Below are positions 1 to 3,610 of a stretch of 64,000 bases of DNA, piece after piece. The notes below the pieces were generated by a model. The model saw only the letters and a program-made list of their open reading frames with translations. It did not search any database and was not told the origin of the DNA. Both the position numbers and the translations under genes were made by a program. The stretch is from Gammaproteobacteria bacterium (GTDB lineage Bacteria > Pseudomonadota > Gammaproteobacteria > GCA-001735895): positions 1-64,000 of the forward strand of contig JASJCI010000006.1 of assembly GCA_030066085.1 (NCBI GenBank), read 5' to 3'. Position 1 is the first letter of the stretch. Each line of letters starts with the position of its first letter.

Positions 1-358
<358 letters not shown>

Positions 359-374
359 TCAGCACTCTGCTGCA

Positions 375-410
375 AATAACCCGCCGGGATTCTCCCGGCG
401 GGTTATTTTT
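375..410 (+). terminator. Rho-independent terminator after hppA
   Basis: A perfect 15-bp stem (375-389 with 393-407) closes a TTC loop and runs into a T-rich tail. It begins 17 bases after the hppA stop codon. It separates hppA transcription from pfp. Confidence 0.93.
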
Positions 411-499
411 CCCCGATCTTCCCGGCAACAGCCGGTTCCCGCGTTATCCCTGCACGCTATTGTGCGCTGTGGCGATCCGAGCTTTTGATTCTCGTACCG

Positions 500-630
500 G
501 CGCGGTCGTGAGGGGCCGGGCGGGAAACGCTCCGTCCGCGGCTGCGCCGCGGACGGCACATCCCTGTGGCGCTCTCCGCCGGGCCCTCCGTGGCCCGGCG
601 AGGTTCCCGCCCAGCCCCTCACGACCGCGC
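500..630. repeat. 131-bp nested inverted-repeat (cloverleaf-like) element
   Basis: Two 27-bp arms (500-526 and 604-630) are reverse complements with one mismatch. Between them lie two perfect hairpins: an 11-bp stem (532-542 with 546-556, loop TGC) and a 9-bp stem (577-585 with 592-600). The whole could fold as a three-way junction in DNA or RNA. It fills most of the gene-free stretch 411-825 between hppA and pfp. No credible ORF was found there. It could be a REP/MITE-type element or a structured RNA, and no second copy was noticed in this window. Confidence 0.75.
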
Positions 631-825
631 TCCGATCATCCGCCAAAACCTGTTGTCGTCCTAGCACAACGGGGGCCGTACCCTCCCGCAATAAATTTCT
701 CGTCATTTGTATGTTGGGTCCTACCGATGAACTGTACTCGCCGAAGATGCTAACCCGGCGCTGTTTTTTGGAACCGATTGCGGTATTCTGCGCGGCCAGT
801 GGAAACCGGTAAAACGAGCTCAGCC

Positions 826-2082
826 ATGACTAAAAAGAACGCCTTTTACGCCCAGTCCGGCGGCGTGACCTCGGTGATCAACGCCAGCGCCTGCGGCGTG
901 ATCGAGACCTGCCGCCAGCACGCCGATCGCATCGGCACCGTTTACGCCGGGCGTAACGGCATCATCGGCGCGTTGACCGAGGATCTGATCGACACCTCGC
1001 GCGAGAGCGATGCCGACATCGCCGCACTCAGGAAAACGCCGTCCGGCGCTTTCGGTTCCTGTCGCTTCAAGCTCAAGAGCCTGGACGAAAACCGGCGCGA
1101 ATACGAGCGCCTGATCGAGGTATTCCAGGCCCACGATATCGGTTACTTTTTTTACAACGGCGGCGGTGATTCGGCCGACACCTGCTACAAGGTCTCGCAA
1201 TTGTCGGAAACCATGGGTTTCCCGGTACAGGCGATCCATGTCCCGAAAACCGTCGACAACGACCTGCCGATCACCGATAACTGCCCCGGTTTCGGTTCGG
1301 TGGCGAAATACATCGCCGTGTCCGCGCTGGAGGCCTCCTTCGACGTCGCCTCGATGGCGAAGACCTCGACCAAGGTTTTCATCCTCGAAGTCATGGGGCG
1401 GCACGCCGGCTGGATTGCGGCCGCGGGCGGCCTGATCGCCGATTACGACGTTCCGGTCGTGCTGCTGTTACCCGAGGTCGATTTTGATCACGATCGGTTC
1501 ATCGCGTCGGTGAAACACAAGGTCGAAACCCACGGTTACTGCACGGTCGTCGTTTCCGAGGGAGCCCACCACCCGGACGGGCGCTTCCTCGCCGAACAGG
1601 GTACCCGCGACGCTTTCGGCCACGCCCAGCTCGGCGGCGCGGCGCCGGTCGTCGCGGGTATGGTCAAGGATGCGCTGGGCTACAAGTTTCACTGGGCGGT
1701 AGCGGACTACCTGCAGCGCGCCGCGCGCCACATTGCTTCCGCGACTGACGTCGAGCAGGCTTACGCACTCGGTCGGGCCGGGGTCGAAATGGCGCTCGAC
1801 GGGAAAAACGCCATCATGCCGACGATCGATCGCGTCTCCAGCGATCCCTACGAATGGCGCATCGGCAGCGCGGACCTGGCCGACGTGGCCAACGTCGAGA
1901 AAGCCATGCCGCTGGATTTCATCAGCGAGGACGGCTTCGGCATCACCGACGCCTGCCGCGATTACCTCTACCCGCTGATCCAGGGGGAAGCCTACCCCGA
2001 TTACGACCAACGCGGCATGCCGCGCTACGTCGTGCTCAAAAACGAACCGGTTGCGAAAAAGCTCGGGCCGTTCGAAATCTAG
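826..2082 (+). CDS. pfp: Pyrophosphate-dependent 6-phosphofructokinase
   Basis: The 418-residue protein phosphorylates fructose 6-phosphate reversibly, using PPi instead of ATP, in the cytoplasm. The ATG at 826 was chosen because the N-terminus MTKKNAFYAQSGG then begins at the first beta strand of the fold; the in-frame TTG at 778 would add an unlikely tail. PFK motifs are clear: NGGGDSADT near the nucleotide/PPi site, PKTVDNDL with the Lys typical of PPi enzymes, and EVMGRHAGW in the substrate site. Nearby hppA and ppa make PPi turnover the theme. In methylotrophic gammaproteobacteria pfp is known to be linked to an H+-PPase gene. Whether the in vivo direction is glycolytic or gluconeogenic cannot be read from sequence. 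Confidence 0.92.
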   Translation: MTKKNAFYAQSGGVTSVINASACGVIETCRQHADRIGTVYAGRNGIIGALTEDLIDTSRESDADIAALRKTPSGAFGSCRFKLKSLDENRREYERLIEVFQAHDIGYFFYNGGGDSADTCYKVSQLSETMGFPVQAIHVPKTVDNDLPITDNCPGFGSVAKYIAVSALEASFDVASMAKTSTKVFILEVMGRHAGWIAAAGGLIADYDVPVVLLLPEVDFDHDRFIASVKHKVETHGYCTVVVSEGAHHPDGRFLAEQGTRDAFGHAQLGGAAPVVAGMVKDALGYKFHWAVADYLQRAARHIASATDVEQAYALGRAGVEMALDGKNAIMPTIDRVSSDPYEWRIGSADLADVANVEKAMPLDFISEDGFGITDACRDYLYPLIQGEAYPDYDQRGMPRYVVLKNEPVAKKLGPFEI

Positions 2083-2146
2083 CGCCCGAACCCTAATAGA
2101 AAGAATTGAAATCGCCCGGGAATCGGCGATGGTCCGTTTTGTCCGC

Positions 2147-2152
2147 TATAAT
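2147..2152 (+). promoter_or_regulatory. Candidate -10 element of the ppa promoter
   Basis: A perfect TATAAT lies 31 bases before the ppa start codon. This would give a leader of roughly 25 nt. No good -35 hexamer is visible 17 bp upstream, so this is a moderate call. Confidence 0.5.
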
Positions 2153-2182
2153 GGCCCGCCTTGACACTATTCGGACAGCATC

Positions 2183-2722
2183 ATGATCCTCGACCGGGTA
2201 AACAGCGGCTTCAGCATTCCCAACGACGTCAACGTCATCATCGAGATTCCGGCGCACAGCGACCCGATCAAGTACGAGATCGACAAGGACACGGGTGCCA
2301 TGTTCGTCGACCGCTTCATGGGCACATCGATGCACTACCCCTGTAATTACGGCTACATCCCGCAAACCCTGGCGGAAGACGACGACCCGGTCGACGTCAT
2401 GGTCGTAACCCCGATCCCGGTCATCACCGGTGCGGTGATTCGCGTGCGGCCGCTCGGTGTACTCAACATGACCGACGACTCGGGCAAGGATGCGAAGATC
2501 ATCGCGGTGCCGATCGACAAACTGTCGGGTACCTACTCCACCATGCATACCGCGCGCGACCTGCCAAAGCCGCTGCTCGATTCGATCGCGCACTTCTTCG
2601 ATCACTACAAGGATCTCGAACCCGGCAAATGGGTCACGATCGAAGGCTGGGGTGATGTCGAAGACGCCAAGCGCGAAATCCTCGCCAGCGTCGAACGCTA
2701 CAAGGCCGCAAACCCGGACTAG
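2183..2722 (+). CDS. ppa: Inorganic pyrophosphatase (soluble, family I)
   Basis: This 179-residue cytoplasmic enzyme hydrolyses PPi to two phosphates and drives biosynthetic reactions. The length matches bacterial family I PPases of about 175 residues. The metal-binding signature is present as [10 protein letters not shown], and [14 protein letters not shown] and [12 protein letters not shown] fit the active-site strands. The tail [20 protein letters not shown] is also typical. The gene is 100 bp downstream of pfp with a possible promoter of its own. A soluble PPase next to a PPi-using kinase is metabolically notable because both draw on one pool. Confidence 0.96.
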
Positions 2723-2929
2723 CAACCGATCCGGATGGAGTTCTCGCCGGGCCGCCATGATTGTCTCCTGTCATCCCGCGGCTTGGAGGCCTTCCGGGTC
2801 GAGGCCGCTGGCGACATGCTTTTTTCGTGGCAGGCAACAGGCTTCGAATCCTGCGCGGATCGGGCCAGGTAGCCGAAGAAACATCCCCGGGGGCTTGCCG
2901 CCTTGCAAGGATTACCTCTTGCCGGGGGA

Positions 2930-3610
2930 TCAGGACTCGGCGCGGGTACTCATGAGCAGCGCACGCTCGTCGGCGCCGATTTCGGTAGCCGAACGCAGCG
3001 TTTGATAATCGACGTGGCAGATACAGTTGCGCCCGGACTGCTTGGCCTCGTAGAGAAACTTGTCGACCGAGTCGACGAACTCGTCGATATCCTGGGCGCT
3101 GGTTTTCATGTACACGCTCGCCCCCATGCTAACCGTCATCCGCAGTTCGCCGGCATCGGTTTGCGCGGGCGTGTCCTGGATTTCGAGCCGGATGCGATCC
3201 GCCACCTTGACCGCCAGGTTCAGGTGCGTCTCGGGGAAAACGAGCGCAAATTCCTCGCCGCCGTAGCGACAGACGATATCGGTGGTCCTGACTTCGCCGC
3301 GCAGGATCTCCGCCAGGTGGCACAGCGCCTGGTTACCGATTTCATGCCCGTGCGTATCGTTGACCTGCTTGAAGTGGTCGATGTCGAGCAGCACGAGGCT
3401 GGTCGGGATACCGCTGCGCTTGGAGCGATCCATCTCCGCCTGCAGCACGTTCTTGAAATGGCGAAAATTGTACAGCCCCGTCAGGGCATCGGTGGACACG
3501 AGCTCGGACAACTCTTCGACCTTCTGACGCAACGCCAGGACTTCGTCGTGCCAGGGACAGATCTCCTCGCACGCGGGGCAGTTCCGGTTGTCCTCGTCGG
3601 GATCAATCAT
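2930..3610 (-). CDS. Diguanylate cyclase (GGDEF) with an N-terminal Cys/His motif
   Basis: This 226-residue soluble protein should make cyclic di-GMP from two GTP. The catalytic motif is GGEEF (117-121). An RTTD inhibitory site (108-111) lies five residues upstream, predicting product feedback inhibition. The DxLTGLYNFRHF start of the GGDEF fold is at about 41-52. The first 30 residues contain C11, C14, C18 and H21, a compact set that could bind zinc or another metal, followed by a short coiled coil. The start ATG overlaps the end of the upstream HxlR gene by 8 bases, so the two are co-transcribed. Sensory input through the Cys/His motif is inference. Confidence 0.92.
   Translation of the reverse strand: MIDPDEDNRNCPACEEICPWHDEVLALRQKVEELSELVSTDALTGLYNFRHFKNVLQAEMDRSKRSGIPTSLVLLDIDHFKQVNDTHGHEIGNQALCHLAEILRGEVRTTDIVCRYGGEEFALVFPETHLNLAVKVADRIRLEIQDTPAQTDAGELRMTVSMGASVYMKTSAQDIDEFVDSVDKFLYEAKQSGRNCICHVDYQTLRSATEIGADERALLMSTRAES

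Follow-up and report, generated by a model that had tools for sequence, protein, structure and literature searches.

A dispersed palindromic repeat of Gammaproteobacteria with a predicted RNA core and candidate CsrA-type hairpins

The palindrome and its neighbourhood

The window analysed here, a stretch of 64,000 nucleotides, carries near its start the C-terminal end of a membrane pyrophosphatase gene (H_PPase, Pfam PF03030; 29..358, plus strand). A perfect 16-bp hairpin 3' of this gene (374..408), which is absent from the list returned by our terminator scan, is probably its terminator. Between this hairpin and a phosphofructokinase-family gene (Pfam PF00365; 823..2082), also on the plus strand, lies the palindromic element (500..630). 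Its proposed RNA would be read from the minus strand, with its 5' end at 630, and would be antisense to both neighbouring genes; the strand was assigned from the match to a family model (R2) and from a wobble bias, both described below. A scan of 300-900 found no sigma-70 promoter on either strand. At 760-800, 5' of the phosphofructokinase gene, and at the same place in many congeners, there is a stretch TTTTTT...GCGGTATTCTGC that is possibly the promoter of that gene.

The original prediction had described a 131-base palindrome in which a 27-bp outer stem with one mismatch encloses two perfect, GC-rich hairpins, and the sequence agrees with it: the arms (500-526 and 604-630) pair over 27 bp with a single mismatch (C517 against A613), and the enclosed hairpins are hp1 (532-542 with 546-556, 11 bp) and hpA (578-585 with 592-599, 8 bp, or 9 with a flanking C-G pair), both perfect and GC-rich. 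Left out of that description was hpB, a third, short hairpin of 4 bp (557-560 with 565-568). Read along the proposed minus-strand RNA, the 5' arm of the outer stem (604..630) is followed by hpA (578..599; GCCGGGCC-ACGGAG-GGCCCGGC, with a hexaloop that holds GGA), a first GAGCG box between hpA and hpB (570..574), hpB (557..568; CACA-GGGA-UGUG, which includes ACAGGGAUGU and fits the ACARGGAUGU of the CsrA SELEX consensus), hp1 (532..556), a second GAGCG box (528..532) and, adjoining it, the 3' arm (500..526). Both boxes are invariant in the 21 copies of an alignment of the family (A3), 19 of which came from a pattern that fixed the box. The 11-bp hp1 is an extra hairpin of variable sequence, found in all eight copies of the window's genome and in none of the 21 copies of A3. 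That such regularity exceeds chance, as had been claimed, is borne out by folding: the plus strand (490-640) folds at -112.3 kcal/mol (z = -8.4) and the minus strand (497-633) at -117.5 kcal/mol (z = -10.5), and in each case 0 of 200 dinucleotide shuffles folded as low. Equally, the claim that the structure matches no terminator stands, as the scan of 300-900 gave no terminator-like site at 500-630.

A dispersed family and its mobility

Searching the window's genome at the DNA level brought up related copies, and R1, a covariance model built from six copies of this genome, recovered eight at E 2.2e-13 or better, six of them its own seeds and two new, besides two antisense matches that are weak (E 0.2 and E 0.5). 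The eight have cores that are alike and little in common outside the core, a short stretch of arm common to two of them (C33 and C36) aside; three reach a contig end or lie at most 170 bases from one. Covariation among six of these copies amounts to 16 two-sided cells, against 5 in shuffles. Two copies (C26b, at L007, and C41, at L014) have a longer linker between hpA and hpB with a small extra hairpin of the CCGACACTTCGGTGCAGAG type. In 57 relatives the DNA search matched the window's genome and, in another family, a single short stretch; it gave none in the 30 congeners, and it also missed two copies in the congener G003 that are found by R2.

Across named genomes, the pattern CGCTCNNNCACRTCCNTGTGNCGCTC matches 62 stretches, with carriers that include Marinobacter, Oceanisphaera, Neiella, Reinekea and Lysobacterales. 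The model R2, built from 21 non-redundant copies (alignment A3) that all come from genomes other than the window's, recovers the window copy (minus strand, 599-556; E 8.4e-8). With a cut-off of E 0.001 it matched 68 of 369 genomes from the class to which the window's genome belongs, taken as Gammaproteobacteria from the named carriers, all R2 E-values being rough. At E 1e-4 it found from 2 to at least 148 copies in each of 14 chosen carrier genomes, including seven in the window's genome; the highest number, at least 148 among the 150 candidates scored, was that of an Oceanisphaera. Long complementary arms (arm score 24 or more) surround the core in 53 of the 62 genome matches of the pattern, against one of 33 viral matches, and a phage origin was rejected, the core pattern (shorter than the genome pattern) giving chance matches in viral contigs. 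Where the original prediction had envisaged either further copies or a single, poorly conserved one, we found eight in the window's genome and a class-wide family: the element is one copy of a dispersed, palindromic repeat.

Mobility of this family is well supported. In one Oceanisphaera genome the repeats form units of ~362 bp with ends ATACCAA...TTGGTAT (ATACCAATC ends) and unrelated flanks; of 20 Oceanisphaera loci, 10 show such ends at spacings of 358-413 bp, the 413 bp belonging to a locus into which a further insert is nested, and the aligned units are roughly 74-98% identical. When 11 element loci of G253 were queried, at five of them a single contiguous match in its sister G137 took in the left and the right flank, i.e., the site there is empty. 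Two of the five are clean, lacking 143 and 136 nt with both arms included; therefore the arms came with the element there, and we rejected the idea that they are duplicated or pre-existing target DNA. A possible 4-bp TTGA target duplication occurs at one empty site, and no target duplication was seen around the eight copies of the window's genome. At the window site, no R2 match up to E 1 was found in 26 congener loci, 24 of them with both flanking genes, and the intergenic regions of the congeners have diverged so far that no exact point of insertion can be located. The earlier suggestion of a mobile element is supported for the family, through the empty sites in G137 and the dispersed Oceanisphaera units; the window copy itself is a putative mobile element.

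Four Oceanisphaera loci (L226, L098, L109 and L128) have, nested inside the loop of hpA and oppositely oriented, a further hairpin element of ~50 nt (TGACCGCCAGGGATGGCGGGAATGCC...), and at another (L231) the upstream partner copy is split by unrelated sequence, as if by another insertion. At L193 (G114) the ~17-nt GACCGGCCAGCACCCCA forms a direct repeat around the right-hand unit, once in the spacer and once after the unit.

No autonomous partner was found, Y1 transposases being the class sought: scanning 20 of 32 Y1 loci (+/- 1.5 kb) gave one convincing-looking R2 match and one at E 0.41. The former, at L246 in G137, is a weak match (E 5e-4) no more than ~150 bp from a Y1 transposase gene of IS200 size; that case aside, no RAYT gene lay beside an element in the 20 loci.

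REP, BIME and REPIN sequences are intergenic palindromic repeats, often in inverted pairs (see PMC2817692). REPs are far shorter than a 131-base palindrome. Bacterial MITEs (ERIC, NEMIS, Correia) are short, non-autonomous, palindromic and mostly intergenic inserts. Our element is like the first group in being palindromic, situated between genes and often in inverted pairs, and like MITEs in being short, palindromic and mostly intergenic, with apparent terminal inverted repeats on the Oceanisphaera unit; however, it differs from MITEs in that its RNA-like core is best conserved while the arms vary, and in that no autonomous partner was found among Y1 transposases. That the element is simply an intrinsic transcription terminator or a REP/BIME sequence strikes us as very improbable, even though it is mostly intergenic, palindromic, multi-copy and often in inverted pairs, and although two copies of the window's genome sit between convergent ORFs, just after the co-directional one. 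There is no T run 3' of the stem, and the composite structure is far longer than REPs, with no adjoining RAYT in the 20 Y1 loci scanned (again the IS200-size case aside).

Constraint on the core, strand bias and inversion

Covariation on A3 comprises 134 two-sided cells, compared with 45 +/- 5 in shuffles and 24-37 in slid controls; hpB adds nothing to this figure, the pattern having fixed it in most copies. On the strand bearing GGA, wobbles in the arms are G.U rather than A.C by 77:24 (p 1e-7) in 58 pattern-matching copies (those scoring 24 or more out of 67 rows, five of them from the window's genome) and by 33:9 in 38 model-derived copies, or 25:8 (p 0.005) when four elements common to both sets are removed, the copies being related and the counts hence not fully independent. 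Because G.U is near equal in its two orders (41 and 36 in the first set, 16 and 17 in the second), the bias is not a one-arm effect. Covariation and the strand-specific bias together suggest a structured RNA on the minus strand, so that this option of the original prediction gains in weight, with the RNA itself a prediction. The wobble bias is also compatible with a single strand of DNA that folds, or with mutation that favours one strand. In the copies of alignment A5 the 5' arm of the RNA is G-rich, with G exceeding C in 31 of 38 and C exceeding G in 4.

Neighbouring genes allowed 33 of 55 copies to be classed (from crude ORF calls), and no clear preference in gene orientation was seen among these 33: upstream and downstream genes were same/anti in 10, same/same in 10, anti/anti in 9 and anti/same in 4. 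Seven of the 55 are contained in an ORF at least 150 aa long, and the rest are without a neighbour.

At two loci common to G253 and G137 the core is inverted: the loci are collinear, the switch falls inside the arms, and once one copy is turned round the two sequences are 92% instead of 83% identical at one locus and 88% instead of 79% at the other. Orientation is kept in seven other orthologous pairs, from other genera; that two of nine orthologous copies are inverted would not be expected of an RNA that belongs to a single transcript. The suggestion that the element is a recombination target is upheld to this extent, i.e., that the core has been inverted via the arms at two orthologous sites. 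Close copies also tend to be divergent on their RNA strands, as in all 16 of the two-copy Oceanisphaera loci (4 of 20 loci being single-copy) and, elsewhere, in eight of nine core pairs less than 250 bp apart by hand count, the exception being L302.

Findings of this kind could be read as those of an element that works as single-stranded DNA, its minus strand folding during replication or transposition and its GGA loops being read by a transposase or another DNA-binding enzyme, with the match to CsrA sites coincidental. Gene orientation looks unconstrained, copies insert (the G137 empty sites) and invert (G253 and G137), close pairs are mostly of the one, divergent polarity, and G.T wobble is tolerated in DNA too. 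We nevertheless hold this reading to be rather unlikely: the two loops agree, in sequence as well as in hexaloop form, with a site at which a protein is known to bind RNA, the 20 of 32 Y1 places scanned yielded a single convincing-looking R2 match (that at L246), and orthologous cores are near identical (52/54 to 54/54).

The last point comes from four of the seven pairs that keep orientation, in which the cores agree at 53/54, 52/54, 53/54 and 54/54 positions and the 360-base flanks at 59-90%; the search pattern had itself set 21 of those 54 positions, and at least 128 of the 132 free positions agree. In the arms of one of these pairs, from Marinobacter (L079 and L131), there are four compensated, two-sided changes in 27 positions, the other three pairs having 0, 0 and 1. 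Between copies within G124, G280 and G349 the arms are near unrelated yet self-complementary, e.g., in G280 arm identity is 0.50 (0.46 when shuffled) and self-complementarity 0.98; those of G328, G357 and G358 are conserved between copies (0.70-0.84), which speaks against arms taken from target DNA as a general rule. A weak test of the G280 case at four G411 loci gave no R2 match below E 0.48, and the junctions were unclear. The sequences fit fast paired evolution of the arms, perhaps aided by strand switching.

Strand switching at replication is also what would keep the palindrome perfect if the element were MITE structural junk, with a core that is conserved since the copies are young. Inversion via the arms indicates that strand switching or recombination does occur, and arms that are unlike between copies and self-complementary, such as those of G280, are in keeping with it. 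We consider this quite unlikely, however, as the orthologous cores are far more alike than their flanks, even allowing for the pattern-fixed positions, the wobble bias is strand-specific (77:24 and 25:8), and the GGA of hpA is kept while the hpA stems differ.

GGA loops and a possible role in CsrA binding

In RNA orientation the core runs arm - hpA (GGA loop) - GAGCG - hpB (typically CACA-NGGA-UGUG) - GAGCG - arm. GGA stands in the loop of hpA in all 40 testable copies of other genomes, which were obtained with a pattern that fixed hpB and left hpA free, 19 of 59 rows having been dropped (arm score below 24, or nested or oddly spaced). This is the fairer test, because R2 favours GGA; among model matches, in alignments that overlap in some elements, GGA was found in hpA in 38/38 (A5), 44/45 (A6) and 42/44 (A7) copies and in hpB in 37/38, 44/45 and 44/44, respectively. 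The stems of hpA differ between copies while its GGA stays, and so do those of hpB (CAC/GTG, TAC/GTA, CCC/GGG).

A 2020 review (PMC7652899) gives the CsrA SELEX consensus as RUACARGGAUGU and describes an ANGGAN hexaloop, and it reports very stable hairpins to be uncommon among the ligands. By sequence, the core has at least two GGA hairpin loops, one of them in an ACA/UGU context, so that hpA and hpB look like the published CsrA/RsmA site and are candidate CsrA sites. On the other hand, hpA and the outer stem are long, unlike the usual SELEX ligands, which counts against a CsrA reading. A CsrA gene is present in 11 of the 12 carrier genomes checked, the window's genome included, and the one in which it was not found is 67% complete.

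The closest counterpart among known RNAs is TwoAYGGAY (RF01731), which likewise has two GGA-loop hairpins in tandem, on the same strand, inside a long, poorly conserved outer stem. TwoAYGGAY was entered as probably RNA by Weinberg 2010 (PMC2864571) and proposed to bind CsrA by Gardner and Eldai 2014 (PMC4333381); the CsrA idea for a two-GGA-hairpin shape is therefore not new. Sub-threshold, full-length matches to its model were found at two of ten loci from the window's and other genomes (L124, 32.9 bits; L018, 30.2), and in the window's genome C43 (26.0, partial) and C26 (23.7) also matched below threshold. None of those tested reached the gathering score of 43 bits, the best being 32.9 (L124) and, in the window's genome, 26.0, and the window copy (L001) gave no match up to E 1 or E 5. 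Its loops, ACGGAG and AGGGAU, differ from AYGGAY and conform to the looser ANGGAN form; moreover, the repeat adds the GAGCG boxes and, in the window's genome, a third hairpin, and it is high-copy, mobile, often paired and invertible, which may further set it apart from RF01731. We found no report of a mobile, high-copy, invertible form, and no paper on a repeat that carries CsrA sites, in the literature searched (mainly titles and abstracts, most subscription journals lying outside the search). As far as searched, then, the mobile, high-copy, often paired and invertible form, with a third hairpin in the window's genome, is new.

The CsrA-sequestering sRNAs CsrB, RsmY and RsmZ also have their CsrA sites in GGA hairpin loops, according to the same review (PMC7652899). 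However, those are dedicated sRNAs, whereas the palindrome is a dispersed repeat with two GGA hairpins, and none of their families was among the Rfam matches up to E 1 for window positions 1-3000. Rfam matches to miRNAs, CRISPR-DR29, Ysr224 and others were set aside as sub-threshold hairpin look-alikes.

The anatomy and family of the element are well supported, and the CsrA function that we infer from its sequence is testable. The explanation we prefer, to which we give about an even chance of being right, is that the element belongs to a dispersed family of palindromic mobile repeats, non-autonomous and with a TwoAYGGAY-like core, and that the inner part of the repeat would encode a conserved minus-strand RNA module. 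Two GGA-loop hairpins, hpA and hpB, would be held adjacent on a long stem, with a third hairpin in the window's genome, and once transcribed they may together bind a single CsrA/RsmA dimer, each hairpin supplying one site. Copies in untranslated regions would then act as local CsrA sites and jointly as a diffuse CsrA sink. In a bolder and unlikely version of the same idea, the cargo of the mobile family would be the CsrA-dimer-binding module itself, present in untranslated regions at tens to more than 100 copies per genome, buffering free CsrA and offered to either strand. The site could be so offered because the core flips via its arms and close copies pair divergently.

If CsrA does bind these repeats, mobile DNA would have carried the binding sites of a regulator that acts globally and after transcription into many genomes of the Gammaproteobacteria, and models of CsrA titration and of regulon evolution would change. 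Even without CsrA, the combination of strand-biased constraint, arms compensated in place and core inversion makes the family a measurable system for the upkeep of palindromes.
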